This document shows positions 30,738 to 58,393 of a DNA stretch of 64,000 bases, piece by piece; within the stretch, counting starts at the first letter, position 1; each line of letters begins with the position of its first letter. Both the position numbers and the translations under genes were made by a program. Source of the stretch: Mycolicibacterium insubricum (GTDB lineage: Bacteria; Actinomycetota; Actinomycetes; Mycobacteriales; Mycobacteriaceae). The stretch spans positions 868,001-932,000 of the forward strand of contig NZ_AP022618.1 in the NCBI RefSeq assembly GCF_010731615.1, given 5' to 3'. The notes under the pieces were generated by a model, which saw only the letters and a list, made by a program, of their open reading frames with translations, was not told the DNA's origin and ran no database searches.

Positions 30738-31796
30738 GTGGAGGAGAAGGCCGAGCCGACGGAGCTTGCGGAGTCGGCGGTGGCCGAATCCGGCCGTCGA
30801 CTCCAGCCGCAGGGGGGAAGTGAGAATCGGATGAGCAATCGGCCCAACGGGTTGGCGACGCTGCTGGGAACACCGGGGCGCGCCGTGGCGATCCTGATCG
30901 CCTTCATTCTGGTCGCCGGTGTTTCGCTCGGGTCGATCGCATTCATGCTGTTCGGGCCGCGCGGCGGGTCCACCCCGTCGTCACCGCGGGCGGCCAAACC
31001 CGCCGCCGGGCAGCCGTGCTCGGCCGAGCCGCAGGTCGTTGTCGACGGTATGGCCATGACCCGCGACGGACTGGCGGTGACGCTGCGGCTGACCGGCGGA
31101 TGTGATTCCGACGACGTGCTGACCGGTCCGGGGGTGGGCCTGTCGATCTCCGGCGGCTCGACCGACATCGCCGCCGGCGTCTTCGACCTCACCGGATCGC
31201 CGATCGCACTGCCGGGTGACCGGGACGCCACCCACACCTTCGTGTTCCCCGCCGGGATGTACTGGCGGACCCCGGAGCTGGTGTCGGCGCGGTATTCCTA
31301 CGGGGACCTGACCGCGACGCTGACCGGCGCGAGCCATGGCAGTGGCTCCGGTGGCTACGGCTCCAGCGTGACCGCGCGCTCGCCCATGTCACCGGCGCAC
31401 GGCAGCGCCGACGCCACCGCGGCCGCCGCGCTGGGTGAACTGTCGGCCGCCGATCGCAGCGTGATCAGCTCGTCGCTGGAGAACTGGTGGGTACCGCAGG
31501 TCAGCTCCAAGCGCGTCGGGCTGTATACCGACGGGATCACCTACGGCAACGAGGACATCCTGCGCAACCACCTGCAACTGCGCCAGCAGTACGACAACGT
31601 GCGGCTGCTGTGGGCCAACGACTGGTCCACCTTCGACATCGCCAACTGGTGGGTGACCATCGTCGGGGCGCCGTATTCGGATTCCGGCCAGGCCAACGGC
31701 TGGTGCGACAGCCACGGGATCGGCGTCAACGACTGCTTCGCCAAGGTGGTCAGTACCACCCGGGGCCCGGCCGGGACGACGGTGCTGCGGCACTGA
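30738..31796 (+). CDS. Unknown single-pass anchored exported protein
   Basis: 352 aa from the GTG at 30738. An alternative ATG at 30831, behind AGGGGGGAAG, would give 321 aa. One transmembrane helix (AVAILIAFILVAGVSLGSIAFM) precedes an extracytoplasmic region. The next ~120 residues form a beta-rich domain with paired cysteines (QPCSAE; GGCDSD). A Gly/Ser linker (GSGSGGYGSS) leads to a C-terminal domain of ~150 residues with Trp-rich stretches (LENWWVPQ; NDWSTFDIANWW) and two cysteines (NGWCDSHGIGVNDCF), possibly disulphide bonded. I do not recognise the family. It is convergent with the pseudokinase gene, the two being separated by a tandem repeat. Confidence 0.65.
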   Translation: MEEKAEPTELAESAVAESGRRLQPQGGSENRMSNRPNGLATLLGTPGRAVAILIAFILVAGVSLGSIAFMLFGPRGGSTPSSPRAAKPAAGQPCSAEPQVVVDGMAMTRDGLAVTLRLTGGCDSDDVLTGPGVGLSISGGSTDIAAGVFDLTGSPIALPGDRDATHTFVFPAGMYWRTPELVSARYSYGDLTATLTGASHGSGSGGYGSSVTARSPMSPAHGSADATAAAALGELSAADRSVISSSLENWWVPQVSSKRVGLYTDGITYGNEDILRNHLQLRQQYDNVRLLWANDWSTFDIANWWVTIVGAPYSDSGQANGWCDSHGIGVNDCFAKVVSTTRGPAGTTVLRH

Positions 31797-31798
31797 AC

Positions 31799-31970
31799 CG
31801 GGCGGTTCGGGGAGCGCAGGCGGAGTTGGCGCGAGCGTAGCGAGTGCCGGCGGAGCCGGAGAGAAGTCGGGGCCGCCCGTTACTGAATCGGGCGGTTCGG
31901 GGAGCGCAGGCGGAGTTGGCGCGAGCGTAGCGAGTGCCGGCGGAGCCGGAGAGAAGTCGGGGCCGCCCGT
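31799..31970. repeat. Tandem 82-bp repeat (2 copies, 90-bp period) with inverted ends
   Basis: Copies at 31799-31880 and 31889-31970 are identical; the 8-bp spacer is TACTGAAT. Each unit begins CGGGCGG and ends CCGCCCG, which are reverse complements, so each could fold into a large hairpin. The core GGCGGAGTTGGCGCGAGCG recurs at about 50570. It lies between two convergent gene ends and may act as a terminator. Confidence 0.85.
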
Positions 31971-38835: not shown

Positions 38836-38893
38836 TAGACTGGGCAGCCCCGCGCTGTCGTCTGACCCCCCCGACCCGACGGCAGCGCGGGGC
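38836..38893 (+). ncRNA. Candidate structured small RNA or terminator with C-rich loop
   Basis: A 16-bp stem (38847-38862 with 38878-38893; one G-U wobble) encloses a 15-nt loop containing seven consecutive C residues. A TAGACT -10-like box (38836-38841) ends 5-6 nt before the stem, so a transcript could start exactly with it. The hairpin equally fits a terminator between the converging fadA2 and metal-dependent hydrolase genes. A further CCCGG/CCGGG hairpin follows at about 38922-38934. Confidence 0.4.
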
Positions 38894-38998
38894 CCCACCC
38901 GCGCGAGTCCGCGTGGACGCCCGGTCGCCGGGGTTGAGGGGAGTTCGGCGGCCGGGCATCGGGGTGCCGGCCCACGAATGCGGCTTCGTCGCCGCCCG

Positions 38999-39865
38999 TC
39001 AGTGCAGGTGATCGACCAGTACGCCCTGTTCGCCGAACAACTCCGCGGTCCACCGCGCCAGGAGTGCGGCGTTGTCGCTGTCGTCGGGATGAAACCCCCG
39101 CTGGGTGTAGGCGAACAGCCGAGACAGCACCCGCCGGGAGAGAAACGGCGAGTGGCGCAGCCGATTGAGGCTGCGCAACAGCCGGACCGGGTTATAGGTG
39201 GCGCGGTCACCCAGCAGCGACAGGGCCGCGAAGAAGGCGACGCTGAGGGTGAACGTCGCTCTGATGACCCGCATGGTGACGATCCGTCGTCGTTCCGTTC
39301 CGCCGACCGCCCGGTAGACGTCGAACGCGACCGCCCGATGCTCGGACTCCTCGATGGCGTGCCACAGCAGCATGGACCGCACCTCCGTGGACCCGAGCAG
39401 CGCCTGGGCCCGTTCGTCGGTGAGCAGGGTTTCGGCGAACACCGCGGTGAAGTGCTCCAGCGCCGCGGTGATCGCCAGGCAGGTCAGCGGCGACAGCACC
39501 CGCTCGAACAGCTTCAGGTCCACCCGGGTGCGCCGGTCGATGAACCGGGTGGGGTAGCCCATCCGGTTCAGCCGGTCGTTCAGCGCACGGTGCTCGCGGC
39601 CATGGGTGACCTCCTGCCCGATGAAGCCCTGGACCTGCGCCTTCAGTTCGGGATCGGTGATCCGGTCGGCGTAGTGGCGCACCGAGCGGACGAAGAAATC
39701 CTCTCCCTCGGGAAACGTGGCGGACAGCTGGGCGATGACGTGGCTCATCACCAGGTCGCCGTCGACGAAGTGGCGGTCCAGCGACCCGTCCGGGTAGGCG
39801 AACCGGATGCGGCGCGCCCGGACGACGTGTTTACCTGCGGTGGCCGACTTTTCGATGTCCGTCAT
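38999..39865 (-). CDS. Predicted metal-dependent hydrolase (PF10118-like), ferritin-like fold
   Basis: 288 aa. The motifs FPEGEDFFVRSVRHY, GQEVTHGREHRALN, ALEHFTAVFAE and WHAIEESEHRAVA carry E...EH pairs spaced as in diiron-type helical proteins, matching the family annotated as predicted metal-dependent hydrolases. The chemistry is not established. A central hydrophobic segment (ATFTLSVAFFAALSLLG) could be membrane-embedded. The gene is divergent-free, lying between fadA2 and the DUF1361 gene. Confidence 0.7.
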   Translation of the reverse strand: MTDIEKSATAGKHVVRARRIRFAYPDGSLDRHFVDGDLVMSHVIAQLSATFPEGEDFFVRSVRHYADRITDPELKAQVQGFIGQEVTHGREHRALNDRLNRMGYPTRFIDRRTRVDLKLFERVLSPLTCLAITAALEHFTAVFAETLLTDERAQALLGSTEVRSMLLWHAIEESEHRAVAFDVYRAVGGTERRRIVTMRVIRATFTLSVAFFAALSLLGDRATYNPVRLLRSLNRLRHSPFLSRRVLSRLFAYTQRGFHPDDSDNAALLARWTAELFGEQGVLVDHLH

Positions 39866-39875
39866 GCTGCATGTC

Positions 39876-40520
39876 CTAACGCTCCGGGTGGCTGAAACCG
39901 GGCAGGGCCCAGACCGTCAGGTAGGCCAGACCGAAGAAAGCGGCGACGGCCAACGCCACTCCGGTGGACTGCACCTGCGCCAGTGGTTCGCGAACCCAGC
40001 GCAGGGTTTCGGCCAGGACGTCGTCGGGCCGGGTGACCAGATCCCACGAGTTCCACCGCTGGAACCGGCCGATGACCACGCCGACCGCGCACAGCGCGAC
40101 GGAGGCGACGATGGTGAGCCACCCGGCCAGCACACCGAATTCCCGGTCCAGCCGCTGGTGGACGAGTCGCATCGACACCACCCCGAGCATGATGCCGGTC
40201 CAGGCCGCGAATCCGTACTGCAGCACGTGCCGCCACAGTTCGTATCCCTCGGATAGATGCACGAGGTCGGTCACCAGGTACGGCGCGTTCGGCAGGAAGG
40301 CAAGCCAGCCGACGCCCAGCGGCAGCAGCCAGAACCGGGTGCGCACGGTAGCGAAGCCTACGGCGAAGAGCAGGGGCATCCACGCCAGGAAGAGATTCCA
40401 CACCAGGAACCTGCTCGGGTAGCTCAGCGGCACGGCCGGGTCGGTGACACCGAGAACCACCGTCAGACCGGTCGTCACCAGTAGCGATGACAACAGGACG
40501 ATCCGGCGCACCTCCACCAT
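39876..40520 (-). CDS. DUF1361 family membrane protein
   Basis: 214 aa, about six helices. The DUF1361 signature FLPNAPYLVTDLVHL and the second motif GRFQRWNSWDLV are intact. The function is unknown. It ends 10 bp before the hydrolase start, so the two probably form an operon; it lies 44 bp downstream of fadE5 copy 1. Confidence 0.75.
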   Translation of the reverse strand: MVEVRRIVLLSSLLVTTGLTVVLGVTDPAVPLSYPSRFLVWNLFLAWMPLLFAVGFATVRTRFWLLPLGVGWLAFLPNAPYLVTDLVHLSEGYELWRHVLQYGFAAWTGIMLGVVSMRLVHQRLDREFGVLAGWLTIVASVALCAVGVVIGRFQRWNSWDLVTRPDDVLAETLRWVREPLAQVQSTGVALAVAAFFGLAYLTVWALPGFSHPER

Positions 40521-40564: not shown

Positions 40565-42403
40565 TCAGAAGGCGGCTTCGTCGAGCTCCATCAGGTCGTT
40601 GTCGAGGTTCTCGATGATGGTGCGGGTGGCACTCAGCTGGGGAAGCATGTTCTTGGCGAAGAACGACGCGGCGGCGATCTTGCCCTCGTAGAACAGCTTG
40701 TCCGCGCCGGTGGCGCCGGCGTCGAGCTTCTCGATCGCGACGGCGGCCTGGCGGGCCAGCAGCCAGCCGATCAGCAGGTCGCCGACGGCCATCAGGAACC
40801 GCACGGAACCGGTGCCGACCTTGTACACGCTGGGGGCGTCTTCTTGCGCCGACGCCAGGTACCCCGACAGTGCGGCGGCCATGCCCTGCACGTCGGCCAG
40901 CGCGTTGGCCAGCAGGGTGCGCTCGGCCTTGAGTCGGCCGTTGCCGGTGTCGTTGCGGATGAACTCCTCGATCTGGCCGGCCACGTACGCCAGCGCCTGA
41001 CCCTTGTCCCGGATGATCTTGCGGAAGAAGAAGTCCTGCGCCTGGATGGCGGTGGTGCCCTCATACAGGGAGTCGATCTTCGAATCCCGCACGTACTGCT
41101 CGATCGGGTAGTCCTGCAGGAAGCCCGAGCCGCCGAAGGTCTGCAGCGATTCCTGGCCCAGCAGGATGAACGCCCTCTCTGAACCGCAGCCCTTGACGAT
41201 CGGCAGCAGCAGATCGTTGACCCGCAGCGCCAGATCGGGGTCGATGTCGTGGACCGCGGCGACAACCTCCGCATCCTGGAACGAGGCCGTGTAGAGATAC
41301 ACCGCGCGCATACCCTCGGCGTAGGCCTTCTGGGTCAGCAGGCTGCGCCGGACATCCGGGTGATGGGTGATGGTGACCCGGGGCGCGGTCTTGTCCATCA
41401 TCCGCGTGAGATCCGCGCCCTGCACCCGGTCCTTCGCGTAGGCCAGCGCATTGAGGTATCCCGTCGACAGCGTCGCAATGGCCTTGGTGCCCACCATCAT
41501 CCGCGCCATCTCGATCACGTCGAACATCTGGGCAATGCCGGAGTGCACCTCCCCGACCAGCCAGCCCTTGGCGGGCACGCCGTGCTGACCGAACGTCAGC
41601 TCACAGGTGGCCGACGCGTTCAGGCCCATCTTGTGCTCGACGTTGGTGACGAAGACGCCGTTGCGCTCACCGAGTTCCCCGGTCTCGGCGTCGAACACGA
41701 ACTTCGGCACCACGAATAACGACAGACCCTTGGTGCCCGGGCCGGCGCCGTCGGGGCGGGCCAGCACCAGATGAAGGGTGTTCTCGAACAGATCGTCCGC
41801 GTCGGCGGAGGTGATGAACCGCTTCACCCCGTCGATGTGCCAGGAGCCGTCGGGCTGCTGGATCGCCTTGGTGCGGCCGGCGCCCACGTCGGACCCGGCG
41901 TCGGGCTCGGTGAGCACCATGGTGGCGCCCCAGTCGCGGTCGGCGGCCAGGATCGCCCACTTCTTCTGATCTTCGGTGGCGTTCTCGTAGAAGATCTGCG
42001 CGAGGGTGGCGCCGCTGGTGTAGACCCACACCGCCGGGTTGGCGCCGAGGATGTGTTCGTGCAGGGCCCACAGCAGGGCGCTGGGTGCCGGCATCCCGCC
42101 GACTTCCTCGCGCAGGCCGACCCTGTGCCAGCCGCCTTCGACGACCGCGCGGACCGAGGCTTTGAACCGTTCGGGCAGGGTGACGGTGTGGGTGTCGGGG
42201 TCGAAGACCGGCGGGTTGCGGTCGCCGTCTGCGAAGGAATCGGCGATCGGGCCCTCGGCCAGACGCGCCATCTCCGACAGCATTTCCCGGGCGGTGTCGA
42301 CGTCGATGTCGGCGAAGCGGCCCGTGCCGAATGCCTCGTCGATGCTCAGAACCTCGAACAGGTTGAACTCCTGATCGCGGACGTTGGACTTGTAGTGACC
42401 CAC
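40565..42403 (-). CDS. fadE5: Acyl-CoA dehydrogenase FadE5, copy 1 of 3 (most downstream)
   Basis: 612 aa (611 in Rv0244c). A flavin-dependent acyl-CoA dehydrogenase; the FAD-domain motif [16 protein letters not shown] and the later [14 protein letters not shown], with the catalytic glutamate, are intact. The start is GTG 42403 behind GAGGAGG; the longer open frame runs back through the ribosome binding site. This copy differs from the others in the 3' part ([12 protein letters not shown]) and in the [17 protein letters not shown] segment, and ends in TGA rather than TAA. It follows a terminator hairpin and an own promoter region, so it may be independently transcribed. Confidence 0.9.
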
Positions 42404-42534
42404 GGCTGTCCTCCTCATCGAGACTGCGAGAACACTACGATAGATCGATCGATTCATTTGGTGCGAGGCCAGGCCCCGAAGACGACGAGACCCCCGCCGG
42501 CGGCGGGGGTCTCGCGTCAGAGATTCAGCAGCCT
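42404..42534 (-). promoter_or_regulatory. 131-bp spacer between fadE5 copies 2 and 1: promoter with ATCGATCGAT palindrome
   Basis: Identical base for base to 44374-44504. It holds a terminator hairpin, then on the minus strand AATCGATCGATC, a possible -10 TATCGT (plus 42438-42443) and GAGGAGG before the GTG. Its sequence is unrelated to the region upstream of copy 3. Confidence 0.6.
42486..42514. terminator. 13-bp-stem hairpin terminator after fadE5 copy 2
   Basis: The arms 42486-42498 and 42502-42514 are perfectly complementary around loop GGC. It lies 21 bp after the copy 2 stop codon on the minus strand. Confidence 0.8.
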
Positions 42535-44373
42535 TTAGAAGGCGGCTTCGTCGAGCTCCATCAGGTCGTTGTCGAGGTTCTCGATGATGGTGCGGGTGGC
42601 ACTCAGCTGGGGAAGCATGTTCTTGGCGAAGAACGACGCGGCGGCGATCTTGCCCTCGTAGAACAGCTTGTCCGCGCCGGTGGCGCCGGCGTCGAGCTTC
42701 TCGATCGCGACGGCGGCCTGGCGGGCCAGCAGCCAGCCGATCAGCAGGTCGCCGACGGCCATCAGGAACCGCACGGAACCGGTGCCGACCTTGTAGACGC
42801 TGGGGGCGTCCTCCTGGGCGGCCATCAGGTAACCGGTCAGCGCGGCGGCCATGCCCTGCACGTCGGTCAGCGCGTTGGCCAGCAGGGTGCGCTCGGCCTT
42901 GAGTCGCCCGTTGCCGGTGTCGTTCTTGATGAACTCCTCGATCTGGCCGGCCACGTACGCCAGCGCCTGACCCTTGTCCCGGATGATCTTGCGGAAGAAG
43001 AAGTCCTGCGCCTGGATGGCGGTGGTGCCCTCATACAGGGAGTCGATCTTCGAATCCCGCACGTACTGCTCGATCGGGTAGTCCTGCAGGAAGCCCGAGC
43101 CGCCGAAGGTCTGCAGCGATTCCTGGCCCAGCAGGATGAACGCCCTCTCTGAACCGCAGCCCTTGACGATCGGCAGCAGCAGATCGTTGACCCGCAGCGC
43201 CAGATCGGGGTCGATGTCGTGGACCGCGGCGACAACCTCCGCATCCTGGAACGAGGCCGTGTAGAGATACACCGCGCGCATACCCTCGGCGTAGGCCTTC
43301 TGGGTCAGCAGGCTGCGCCGGACATCCGGGTGATGGGTGATGGTGACCCGGGGCGCGGTCTTGTCCATCATCCGCGTGAGATCCGCGCCCTGCACCCGGT
43401 CCTTCGCGTAGGCCAGCGCATTGAGGTATCCCGTCGACAGCGTCGCAATGGCCTTGGTGCCCACCATCATCCGCGCCATCTCGATCACGTCGAACATCTG
43501 GGCAATGCCGGAGTGCACCTCCCCGACCAGCCAGCCCTTGGCGGGCACGCCGTGCTGACCGAACGTCAGCTCACAGGTGGCCGACGCGTTCAGGCCCATC
43601 TTGTGCTCGACGTTGGTGACGAAGACGCCGTTGCGCTCGCCCAGCTCGCCGGTCTCGAAGTCGAACAGGAACTTCGGCACGAAGAACAGGGACAGGCCCT
43701 TGGTGCCCGGTCCGGCGCCCTCGGGGCGGGCCAGCACCAGGTGGAAGATGTTCTCGAACAGGTCATCGGAGTCGGCGGAGGTGATGAACCGCTTCACGCC
43801 GTCGATGTGCCAGGAGCCGTCGGGCTGCTGGATCGCCTTGGTGCGGCCGGCGCCCACGTCGGACCCGGCGTCGGGCTCGGTGAGCACCATGGTGGCGCCC
43901 CAGTCGCGGTCGGCGGCCAGGATCGCCCACTTCTTCTGATCTTCGGTGGCGTTCTCGTAGAAGATCTGCGCGAGGGTGGCGCCGCTGGTGTAGACCCACA
44001 CCGCCGGGTTGGCGCCGAGGATGTGTTCGTGCAGGGCCCACAGCAGGGCGCTGGGTGCCGGCATCCCGCCGACTTCCTCGCGCAGGCCGACCCTGTGCCA
44101 GCCGCCTTCGACGACCGCGCGGACCGAGGCTTTGAACCGTTCGGGCAGGGTGACGGTGTGGGTGTCGGGGTCGAAGACCGGCGGGTTGCGGTCGCCGTCT
44201 GCGAAGGAATCGGCGATCGGGCCCTCGGCCAGACGCGCCATCTCCGACAGCATTTCCCGGGCGGTGTCGACGTCGATGTCGGCGAAGCGGCCCGTGCCGA
44301 ATGCCTCGTCGATGCTCAGAACCTCGAACAGGTTGAACTCCTGATCGCGGACGTTGGACTTGTAGTGACCCAC
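42535..44373 (-). CDS. fadE5: Acyl-CoA dehydrogenase FadE5, copy 2 of 3 (mosaic middle copy)
   Basis: 612 aa, GTG start behind GAGGAGG, TAA stop. All catalytic motifs are as in copy 1. Its sequence alternates between the two neighbours. The N-terminal quarter matches copy 1, a patch around [17 protein letters not shown] matches copy 3, the centre matches copy 1 again, and the C-terminal [20 protein letters not shown] matches copy 3. The final ~250 bp return to the copy 1 type. This pattern fits gene conversion between tandem copies. Expected to be functional. Confidence 0.9.
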
Positions 44374-44504
44374 GGCTGTCCTCCTCATCGAGACTGCGAG
44401 AACACTACGATAGATCGATCGATTCATTTGGTGCGAGGCCAGGCCCCGAAGACGACGAGACCCCCGCCGGCGGCGGGGGTCTCGCGTCAGAGATTCAGCA
44501 GCCT
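44374..44504 (-). promoter_or_regulatory. 131-bp spacer between fadE5 copies 3 and 2
   Basis: An exact repeat of 42404-42534, including the ATCGATCGAT palindrome (44414-44423) and the hairpin at 44456-44484. Confidence 0.6.
44456..44484. terminator. 13-bp-stem hairpin terminator after fadE5 copy 3
   Basis: Identical to the hairpin at 42486-42514, shifted by 1,970 bp; it would end transcription from the first copy. Confidence 0.8.
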
Positions 44505-46343
44505 TTAGAAGGCGGCTTCGTCGAGCTCCATCAGGTCGTTGTCGAGGTTCTCGATGATGGTGCGGGTGGCCGACAGCTGCGGGAGCATGTTCTTGGCGAA
44601 GAACGACGCGGCGGCGATCTTGCCCTCGTAGAACAGCTTGTCCGCGCCGGTGGCGCCGGCGTCGAGCTTCTCGATCGCGACGGCGGCCTGGCGGGCCAGC
44701 AGCCAGCCGATCAGCAGGTCGCCGACGGCCATCAGGAACCGCACGGAACCGGTGCCGACCTTGTAGACGCTGGGGGCGTCCTCCTGGGCGGCCATCAGGT
44801 AACCGGTCAGCGCGGCGGCCATGCCCTGCACGTCGGTCAGCGCGTTGGCCAGCAGGGTGCGCTCGGCCTTGAGTCGCCCGTTGCCGGTGTCGTTCTTGAT
44901 GAACTCCTCGATCTGGCCGGCCACGTACGCCAGCGCCTGACCCTTGTCCCGGATGATCTTGCGGAAGAAGAAGTCCTGCGCCTGGATGGCGGTGGTGCCC
45001 TCATACAGGGAGTCGATCTTCGAGTCGCGCACGTACTGCTCGATCGGGTAGTCCTGCAGGAAGCCCGAACCGCCGAAGGTCTGCAGCGATTCCTGGCCCA
45101 GCAGCACGAACGCCCGCTCGGAGCCGCAGCCCTTGACGATCGGCAGCAGCAGGTCGTTGACCTTGAACGCCAGGTCGGCGTCGATGCCGTGGACGGCCTT
45201 GGCGACCTCTTCGTCCTGGAAGGACGCGGTGTAGAGGTAGACCGCGCGCATGCCCTCGGCGTAGGCCTTCTGGGTCAGCAGGCTGCGCCGGACATCCGGG
45301 TGGTGGGTGATGGTGACGCGCGGGGCGGTCTTGTCCATCATCTGGGTCAGATCGGCACCCTGCACGCGCTCCTTGGCGTACTCGAGAGCGTTGAGGTAAC
45401 CGGTGGACAGGGTGGCGATGGCCTTGGTGCCCACCATCATCCGGGCCTGCTCGATGACGTCGAACATCTGCGCGATGCCGGAGTGCACCTCCCCGACCAG
45501 CCAGCCCTTGGCGGGAATCCCGTGCTGGCCGAAGGTCAGCTCACAGGTGGCCGAAACCTTCAGGCCCATCTTGTGCTCGACGTTGGTGACGAAGACGCCG
45601 TTGCGCTCGCCCAGCTCGCCGGTCTCGAAGTCGAACAGGAACTTCGGCACGAAGAACAGGGACAGGCCCTTGGTGCCCGGTCCGGCGCCCTCGGGGCGGG
45701 CCAGCACCAGGTGGAAGATGTTCTCGAACAGGTCATCGGAGTCGGCGGAGGTGATGAACCGCTTCACGCCGTCGATGTGCCAGGAGCCGTCGGGCTGCTG
45801 GATCGCCTTGGTGCGGCCGGCGCCCACGTCGGACCCGGCGTCGGGCTCGGTGAGCACCATGGTGGCGCCCCAGTCGCGCTCGGAGGCGATGACGGCCCAC
45901 TTCTTCTGCTCTTCGGTGGCGTTCTCGTAGAAGATCTGCGCGAACGCGGCGCCGCCGGCGTACATCCAGACGGCCGGGTTGGCGCCCAGGATGTGCTCGT
46001 TGAGGGCCCACAGCAGGGCCCGCGGCGCGGGCATGCCGCCGAGCTCCTCACGCAGGCTCACCTTGTTCCAGCCACCCTCGATGCAGGCGCGCACCGAGGC
46101 CTTGAAAGGCTCGGGCAGGGTGACGGTGTGGGCGTCGGGGTCGAAGACCGGCGGGTTGCGGTCGCCGTCCTCGAAGGAATCGGCGATCGGGCCCTCGGCC
46201 AGACGCGCCATCTCCGAGAGCATTTCGCGGGCGGTGTCGACGTCGATGTCGGCAAACGAGCCCTGGCCGAGTGCCTTGTCGATGCCCAGAACCTCGAACA
46301 GGTTGAATTCCTGGTCGCGTACGTTGGACTTGTAGTGACCCAC
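44505..46343 (-). CDS. fadE5: Acyl-CoA dehydrogenase FadE5, copy 3 of 3 (first transcribed)
   Basis: 612 aa, GTG start 46343 behind GAGGAGG, TAA stop. From memory it appears closest to M. tuberculosis FadE5 in its N-terminus ([14 protein letters not shown]) and interior ([19 protein letters not shown]), suggesting it is the ancestral copy. It oxidises long- and medium-chain acyl-CoA to trans-2-enoyl-CoA, passing electrons to ETF. It alone carries the TTAC-N6-GTAA operator shared with fabG4/fadA2. In M. tuberculosis fadE5 also lies between fadA2 and the sdh operon. Confidence 0.92.
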
Positions 46344-46405: not shown

Positions 46406-46432
46406 GTTACCCACCAGTAACCCATAACTATA
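46406..46432 (-). promoter_or_regulatory. fadE5 copy 3 promoter: GTTAC-N6-GTAAC operator and TATAGT -10
   Basis: The palindrome GTTACCCACCAGTAAC (46406-46421) shares the TTAC-N6-GTAA core with 37372. A minus-strand TATAGT box (46427-46432) places the start at about 46420, inside the palindrome, a classic repressor arrangement. Confidence 0.6.
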
Positions 46433-56953: not shown

Positions 56954-58393
56954 TCAAGACCTGGCCCGCGGTTCGATCGCCACCAGCACCGCTCCCGCGG
57001 CGAAAGCGCCGATCGCGTGCCAGGGAATCGCTCCGTCCGGGGCGAACCCGGCCGCGGAGACCACGGTGATGCCGTAGGCGGCCAGCGCCACACCCACGAG
57101 CAGGCACAGGTCCGTCCAGCGCGCCGACGCGGCCACCCGGATCGCCGGCAGCGCCGAGGCGAAGATCCGCCGCAGTTTGAACAGCACCAGCATCTCCCCG
57201 GCCGTCACCACCGCCAGCAGGATCACCCACACTCCGCGCATCAGCCACCAGGAACCGCTGTTCTCCGGGAACTGGGGCAGCAGGCCCGCCGGGTAGGCGA
57301 TCGCGGCGACCACCACGACCGGAACCATGTGCCACAGGTAGAGCGCCATCACGTTGTTGTTGGCCACCGCCAGTACGCCCCGGATCCGCCGCCCGCTCAT
57401 CGCCCGGGTGACCATCGGGCCCAGCGTCACGGCGATCCCGGTCTGCGCGCAGCCGAAGAAGAACATCGCCAGCGACGGCGGGGAGGAGTTCTGGATGTGC
57501 TGGCCCGGAATGTCGATCATGCACACCGGGTACGGGCCGTAGCCGATCAGCACCGCCAGCATCACCGCCGACACCCCGAGCATGACCAGCGGAATCGGGC
57601 CGGGGCCGGAGAACCGGCCGGTGTTGTCTGCGGCCGGCCTCTTCCTCGCGGAAAAACGCCGCTCGTCGAACCGGCCGGTGTTGTCTGCGGCCGGCCTCTT
57701 CCTCGCGGAAAAACGCCGCTCGTCGAACCGGCCGTCGTACCAGGCGATGCCCAGGGTGTACATCGCGCCCCAGCACAGCAGGTAGTTCGCCCAGTTCAGG
57801 TACGGCACATCAGCGGCGTAGCTGAGCAGGTCCACCAGCGCCACACACAGACCCAGGGCCGCCGGCACCCACAACCCCCAGCGCCGCTGCGCGGCGATAC
57901 CGATCGGGGTGAGGTAGACGACGATGGAGTACACCGCCAGGAACCACAGCTGCATGGCCACGGCCCAGCCGGCGTAGGTGAGCACCGCGGCGGGGGCACC
58001 GGCCAGCTTGGCGACGATCATCAGCGTCCAGATGAAGGCCAGATAGGCGCCGGTCGGCCCGAGCGTGGAGGACAACCGGCGCCGCACCCACTCCTGCCGC
58101 GTCATCTTCTGCGTGTCGCGCCAGTGCGCCCAGGACACCGCGCTCGCATAGCCGGCGGCCAGGAAGAACACCGGCACCGCCTGCATCAACCAGACCAGCC
58201 ACTGCGTCCACGGGATGTCGACCAGCGGCTGCTCCAGCCCGAACTCGCCGGATTTGTAGGTGACGCTCGACAGCAGCCAGTGCCCGAAGACGATGAGCAT
58301 GACGCCCGACACCCGGTAGTAGTCGACCGACAGGTTGCGCGGCGGTGCGGAGGTGGCGGTGTTGTCGTGTGCGCTGCCGGGGGTTTCGGCCAT
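56954..58393 (-). CDS. Acyltransferase-3 family membrane protein with internal repeat
   Basis: 479 aa from ATG 58393 (AGGAGAG upstream; the longer frame to 58441 lacks a site). About ten helices with the family start VDYYRVSGVMLIVFGHWLL, where the His is the predicted catalytic residue, and VPVFFLAAGYA. It would transfer an acyl group to a sugar or lipid. A cytoplasmic or periplasmic loop near residues 220-262 carries a 19-residue unit (RFDERRFSARKRPAADNTG) twice in a row. The substrate is unknown; it is a distant paralogue of the TmaT-like gene at 25034. Confidence 0.78.
   Translation of the reverse strand: MAETPGSAHDNTATSAPPRNLSVDYYRVSGVMLIVFGHWLLSSVTYKSGEFGLEQPLVDIPWTQWLVWLMQAVPVFFLAAGYASAVSWAHWRDTQKMTRQEWVRRRLSSTLGPTGAYLAFIWTLMIVAKLAGAPAAVLTYAGWAVAMQLWFLAVYSIVVYLTPIGIAAQRRWGLWVPAALGLCVALVDLLSYAADVPYLNWANYLLCWGAMYTLGIAWYDGRFDERRFSARKRPAADNTGRFDERRFSARKRPAADNTGRFSGPGPIPLVMLGVSAVMLAVLIGYGPYPVCMIDIPGQHIQNSSPPSLAMFFFGCAQTGIAVTLGPMVTRAMSGRRIRGVLAVANNNVMALYLWHMVPVVVVAAIAYPAGLLPQFPENSGSWWLMRGVWVILLAVVTAGEMLVLFKLRRIFASALPAIRVAASARWTDLCLLVGVALAAYGITVVSAAGFAPDGAIPWHAIGAFAAGAVLVAIEPRARS
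57611..57734 (-). repeat. 57-bp tandem repeat (2 full units plus 10 bp) inside the acyltransferase gene
   Basis: The units 57611-57667 and 57668-57724 are identical, and a third begins at 57725 for 10 bp. The 57-bp length keeps the frame and encodes 19 residues per unit, basic and Arg-rich. Likely prone to copy-number change. Confidence 0.9.

Follow-up and report, generated by a model that had tools for sequence, protein, structure and literature searches.

By assembly, the fadE5 locus of Mycolicibacterium insubricum carries three complete copies of this acyl-CoA dehydrogenase gene arranged head to tail, and our analysis indicates that this array quite probably arose in two steps, with an older tandem duplication followed by the recent birth of a recombinant third copy, and probably not through one single triplication. 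The array lies in the 64,000-nucleotide stretch of contig NZ_AP022618.1 analysed here (positions 868,001 to 932,000), to which we refer as the window and whose numbering is used throughout. All copies reside on the minus strand and are transcribed in the order C, B, A: copy C (44505..46343), an ancestral-type gene, comes first; copy B (42535..44373), a mosaic of the other two with no private sites, is in the middle; and copy A (40565..42403), a fast-evolving paralogue, is transcribed last. Each gene measures 1,839 bp including its stop codon (at 44505, 42535 and 40565, respectively) and encodes 612 amino acids in 612 codons with no internal stop, and the start-to-start spacing is 1970 bp in both intervals. 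The spacers between C and B (44374..44504, minus strand) and between B and A (42404..42534, minus strand) are 131 bp each and show 0 differences; as divided by eye, they consist of a hairpin region, about 50 bp left unplaced, and a ribosome-binding site. A sequence-only reading of this DNA had already proposed three intact 612-residue FadE5 genes with a period of exactly 1,970 bp and two identical 131-bp spacers, all of which our data bear out, and it was also right in stating that the catalytic motifs are kept, as a 10-residue motif with the catalytic Glu (residue 448) was found in A, B and C. At the protein level, identity is 98.0% between A and B, 93.3% between B and C, and 91.3% between A and C, the latter pair differing at 53 residues. 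The genome assembly consists of one contig of 4,577,045 bp with 100% completeness, in which no fourth fadE5 copy is listed (matches further down share about 30% identity) and no other full copy of the 131-bp spacer was found. Counting the fadE5 array, the 64 kb contain three tandem duplications. The others are a 90-bp unit in two tandem copies (98% match) at 31792-31970, in a stretch that looks intergenic, and an exact tandem repeat of a 57-bp unit at 57611-57734, present in 2.2 copies and preserving the frame (19 aa per unit) of a 495-aa reading frame that, by eye, looks like a membrane acyltransferase.

Family membership is the same for all three genes, which score above cut-off for the middle, C-terminal and extra C-terminal domains (PF02770, PF00441 and PF12806), and in which the catalytic Glu and gatekeeper Tyr are found as Tyr447-Glu448 (Tyr446-Glu447 in M. 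smegmatis). Copy C, the one copy compared in this manner, matches the 6ks9 and 6kse chains over its full length (residues 1-612), the six best chains scoring 1127-1167 bits. The neighbouring genes, which we take to be sdhA, sdhB, fadA2 and fabG4, are as in loci L125 and L126 and in many, but not all, other loci. FadE5 is labelled Rv0244c and MSMEG_0406. One close fadE5 copy is the rule in the genus; the sequence-only reading had named M. tuberculosis as having a single copy. A match to fadE5 was obtained in 294 of 297 same-genus genomes at E 1e-200 and in 380 of 396 genomes at E 1e-298 (M. insubricum included in both sets, and with three matches in the latter). Two matches each at E 1e-298 were seen in G037, G112, G124, G252, G264 and G273, where they are far apart or on different contigs. 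Near-identical side-by-side fadE5 genes were found in none of the 395 other same-genus genomes, with up to three candidates scored in each, and draft assemblies among the 396 genomes may collapse near-identical tandem copies. Similarly, 109 of 109 loci (L013-L121) have one fadE5 copy within the stretch examined, which spans 1.5 kb per side in the first 29 and is short in some others, several genomes being represented by two loci. The nearest relatives, M. fallax (G410) and M. brumae (G175), have one copy each. A second FadE5-like gene with approximately 60-70% identity resides elsewhere in many genomes, M. insubricum being without one, and distant FadE5-like tandem pairs occur in 5 genomes out of the 32 for which three or four matches were obtained. 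No report on a tandem fadE5 array was present among the literature matches listed. One of the loci, L082 (CAMDFY010000177.1), is titled as a Bifidobacterium breve MAG and holds a mycobacterial-type FadE5 beside a fadA2-like gene, and this contig is likely mis-binned.

The relationship between A and C supports the first of the two steps. In a tree of 29 taxa based on gene positions 1-465 and 786-1320, A is sister to C (99/100), followed by M. fallax and then M. brumae, with branch lengths of 0.160 (A) and 0.024 (C), the former being about 7 times longer; a tree of 107 rows gave the same placement, with branches of 0.169 and 0.025. The copy C protein shares 92.6% of its amino acids with its M. 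fallax counterpart and 89.5% with that of M. brumae. Considering 935 sites of the diverged tracts at which at least 85% of 65 orthologues agree, we found a derived state 51 times in A alone, 3 times in C alone and 8 times in A and C alone; further derived states were shared by C, M. fallax and M. brumae without A (2), by C and M. fallax (1), and by A and M. fallax (2). This count with 65 outgroups took the place of a four-taxon count initially used as a rooting test (summed over the four diverged tracts: A=C 28, C=fallax 15, A=fallax 10), which was dropped because a sister relationship between M. fallax and M. brumae is possible. We infer from these comparisons that the A/C split arose after divergence from M. 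fallax. Gene conversion has probably also left its mark on the pair, as the longest run of identity between A and C (1587-1758, covering 63 polymorphic columns) was equalled in none of 2,000 shuffles and is longer than chance would produce; the next two tracts (1321-1444 and 468-573) were reached by 10 and 50 of 2,000 shuffles, respectively. The suggestion of the sequence-only reading that a broad-range acyl-CoA dehydrogenase underwent recent amplification fits the third copy, B, but not the A/C pair, which is older and unevenly diverged.

The rate excess of A is strong. With M. fallax as outgroup and four tracts summed, from which 13 ambiguous A-C sites were left out, A accumulated 70 synonymous and 56 non-synonymous steps, and C accumulated 22 and 7, although the non-synonymous to synonymous excess in A versus C is borderline (Fisher p 0.059). 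The higher synonymous change in A is at odds with plain relaxed selection, and lower codon constraint is our guess as to its reason. Fast evolution of A could mean that the extra copies are neutral passengers, tolerated without benefit and eventually to be lost, a reading that would agree with the presence of the array in 1 of 396 genomes searched (our own, with up to three candidates scored in each) and with the other tandem duplications in the same window. This is a possibility that we take seriously but regard as somewhat unlikely, because A retains a full reading frame and shows more synonymous change relative to non-synonymous than would generally be expected of a decaying gene.

The sequences surrounding the three genes differ in ways that bear on their expression. 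A palindrome of the form GTTAC-N6-GTAAC (GTTACnnnnnnGTAAC; 46406..46421, minus strand) begins 78 bp upstream of C, and 71 of the 102 orthologues with enough sequence have the same motif in the 250 bp that precede fadE5. These include 66 of 67 mycobacterial loci (those outside L084 and L087-L121), the one miss being L085, and five Gordonia loci, and the other misses belong to Nocardia, Rhodococcus and similar genera. Only C among the three copies keeps this ancestral upstream region, the palindrome being absent upstream of both B and A, and it is on this basis that we identify C as the ancestral-type gene. The 131-bp spacer, in turn, contains a strong hairpin (fold z -3.5), terminator-like although without a strong U-run, which lies at 44451..44488 after C and, as the same element, at 42481..42518 after B, on the minus strand in both cases. 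No hairpin was found after A (z +0.8), which is directly followed by a DUF1361 gene (39876..40520, minus strand), and comparable hairpins were recognised by eye after fadE5 in the 7 relatives examined. A scan for consensus promoters and terminators returned no sigma-70-type promoter and did not list the array hairpins. The sole Rfam match was the F6 sRNA (RF01791, 60.9 bits), at 38841-38898, with the fadA2-like gene on one side and the array on the other. Taken as sequence features, the palindrome and the hairpins suggest that A and B would be transcribed separately from C.

Such an arrangement speaks against pure dosage; dosage was one explanation offered by the sequence-only reading. If the array were a pure dosage amplification, in which three equivalent copies raise FadE5 output, the intact reading frames and catalytic Glu of all three would be accounted for; A and B, however, lack the conserved palindrome of C and sit behind a terminator-like hairpin, and A departs from C at the 53 residues mentioned above and, at the nucleotide level, has changed at 51 sites that are otherwise conserved. 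We therefore do not favour dosage in its pure form and deem it unlikely. Substrate divergence, on the other hand, is plausible from the predicted proteins. Residues 127-134 read VYTSGATL in A and B, MYAGGAAF in C and MYAMGPGM in M. smegmatis, A and B being changed at residues 127, 129, 130, 133 and 134, and among the 105 orthologues position 127 is Met in 104 and position 134 is Phe in 96 and Met in 9. In PMC11890623, the acyl tunnel of M. smegmatis FadE5 is described as blocked by Met134, which moves for long chains, and Gly129/Met130 together with two other residues are described as setting chain length in Pseudomonas aeruginosa FadE1/FadE2. These Gly129/Met130 residues may correspond to position 130 here.

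Copy B provides the evidence for the second step. Of 1,970 columns, 256 vary among the copies, and at 256 of 256 B has the base of either A or C, with 0 private bases. Read 5' to 3' on the minus strand, B falls into six blocks: A-like from the spacer to position 465 (43909..44373 for gene positions 1-465), C-identical at 43639..43798 (576-735), A-identical at 43054..43588 (786-1320), C-identical at 42796..42927 (1447-1578), A-identical at 42601..42613 (1761-1773, 5 sites), and finally C-like at the stop codon (one site, 1838), downstream of which is the same spacer that follows C. Within the gene, the allegiance of B at 175 sites is organised in 5 runs, and 0 of 10,000 shuffles gave so few, the shuffle minimum being 44. 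The switch points coincide with all three of the longest stretches over which A and C are identical (182, 126 and 110 bp), as expected given that recombination needs identity; among the next seven interior stretches of this kind, a switch occurs in one, of 50 bp, and in none of the other six. The order seen in B, A-like upstream and at the 5' end but C-like at the stop codon and downstream, is the one predicted by unequal crossing-over, and it can be reasoned that unequal crossing-over of a C-A pair would yield the exact period and the identical spacers as well, these being consequences of one model and not independent coincidences. Neither the mosaic make-up of B, nor this common origin of period and spacers, nor the restriction of the ancestral upstream region to C had been noticed in the sequence-only reading. 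With 0 private sites in 1,970 bp, B is expected to postdate the A-C split by far, unless it was homogenised.

An assembly-graph mis-walk, however, predicts the very same pattern in B. The existence of B does rest on the assembly, since a wrong walk between A and C in the graph would give the same figure, and it is by assembly that the tandem array is real. B could thus be an assembly or polishing artefact, with only C and A actually existing and the third copy generated by an extra walk through a repeat loop, or through phasing overwritten by polishing. The absence of private sites would fit this scenario, and so would the position of the switches, which fall in the longest stretches of A-C identity, where neither short reads nor k-mers can separate the copies. 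A database protein, P0008, which equals C except for the start residue, ends at residue 568 on a 29,962-bp contig, as if that assembly had broken in the repeat. Against an artefact speak the single-contig, complete assembly of our genome and the fact that one wrong loop needs 1 switch, so that 4 more are not the simplest error; furthermore, another database protein, P0001 (from a cluster of 10 member sequences), is equal to A save for S20G and the start residue and is encoded on a 702,312-bp contig, so that A has apparently been seen apart from our own assembly, whereas B has not; its S20G difference hints at variation among strains. These two database proteins support A and C, not B. That the copies are not identical had been put forward by the sequence-only reading against an assembly error, and this argument does protect A and C but is weak for B, due to its lack of private sites. 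On balance, we give the artefact a small chance of being correct.

The gene downstream of A invites a further alternative. In M. aurum (L046), M. sp. NS-7484 (L042), G020, G273, G333 and G049, a DUF1361 gene and fadE5 are separated by no more than about 100 bp, and the genomes of M. fallax and M. brumae gave no match to DUF1361. The region after A (38999-40520) encodes DUF1361 and a predicted metal-dependent hydrolase (PF10118); in the respective fadE5-region stretches, M. brumae has the PF10118 hydrolase without DUF1361 and M. fallax has neither. Import of A together with DUF1361 from another mycobacterium, followed by partial conversion by C, would suit this distribution among rapid growers, the excess synonymous change in A and the finding that, in tract 576-735, 11 of 105 orthologues resemble A more closely than C does, but is very improbable to us, as in tracts 1-465, 786-1320 and 1447-1578 this applies to 0 of the 105, and the sister placement of A and C and their 8 exclusive derived sites disfavour a horizontal origin.

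We thus return to the two-step origin. In the first step, which the tree and the flanks suggest, a single fadE5, now C, would have been tandemly duplicated after the split from M. fallax to give C-spacer-A. A would have been left with neither the ancestral palindrome nor the terminator hairpin and would have evolved fast, acyl-tunnel loop included, while partial conversion presumably kept at least its 3' part C-like. In the second, recent step, B would have arisen from an unequal exchange between A and C by homologous recombination, with its upstream region and 5' end from A and its 3' end and hairpin from C, and two further patches may have entered through conversion or template switching. 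Most likely, C keeps the normal FadE5 role under normal control, and A and B are most likely active acyl-CoA dehydrogenases with separate expression, possibly with a shifted chain-length preference. It is tempting to go further and picture the array as a recombination workshop, in which a conserved C stays under old control, a fast A with a rebuilt tunnel is placed under new control, and B, as a chimera of the A tunnel loop with middle and late C-terminal segments of C, widens the chain-length range by shuffling between neighbours, but we hold this view tentatively and consider it doubtful. An acyl-CoA dehydrogenase with an older duplicate and a chimeric third copy would allow a clean look at how tandem recombination, together with new regulation, divides the work of an enzyme, and B also serves as a warning that perfect mosaics need read support.

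Compared with the known mycobacterial FadE5 (6ks9, 6kse), a dehydrogenase of broad specificity for linear acyl-CoAs with a preference for long chains, the genes described here share the Pfam domains, the catalytic Tyr-Glu, the neighbours and, for C, the full-length match, but form three tandem copies instead of one, and A and B are altered in the loop at the position of the Met134 tunnel plug of M. smegmatis FadE5 (PMC11890623). The tandem pairs of G112, G035, G152, G090 and G154 are likewise head-to-tail FadE5-family genes, although 60-72% identical to C (the two of G154 being partial) and with match spacings of 5-11 bp in four of them and 457 bp in G154, versus the 131-bp spacers of M. insubricum. 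The mechanisms that formed the array are of known kinds. Gene conversion in the M. tuberculosis complex is on record, with PE/PPE and ESX genes named in PMC12046097, and those paralogues resemble our array in their patchy conversion tracts and in duplication by homologous recombination. They differ in that here the affected gene encodes a lipid-oxidation enzyme of another mycobacterium and not an antigen family, and in that conversion and the birth of a new copy would both have taken place within one tandem array.
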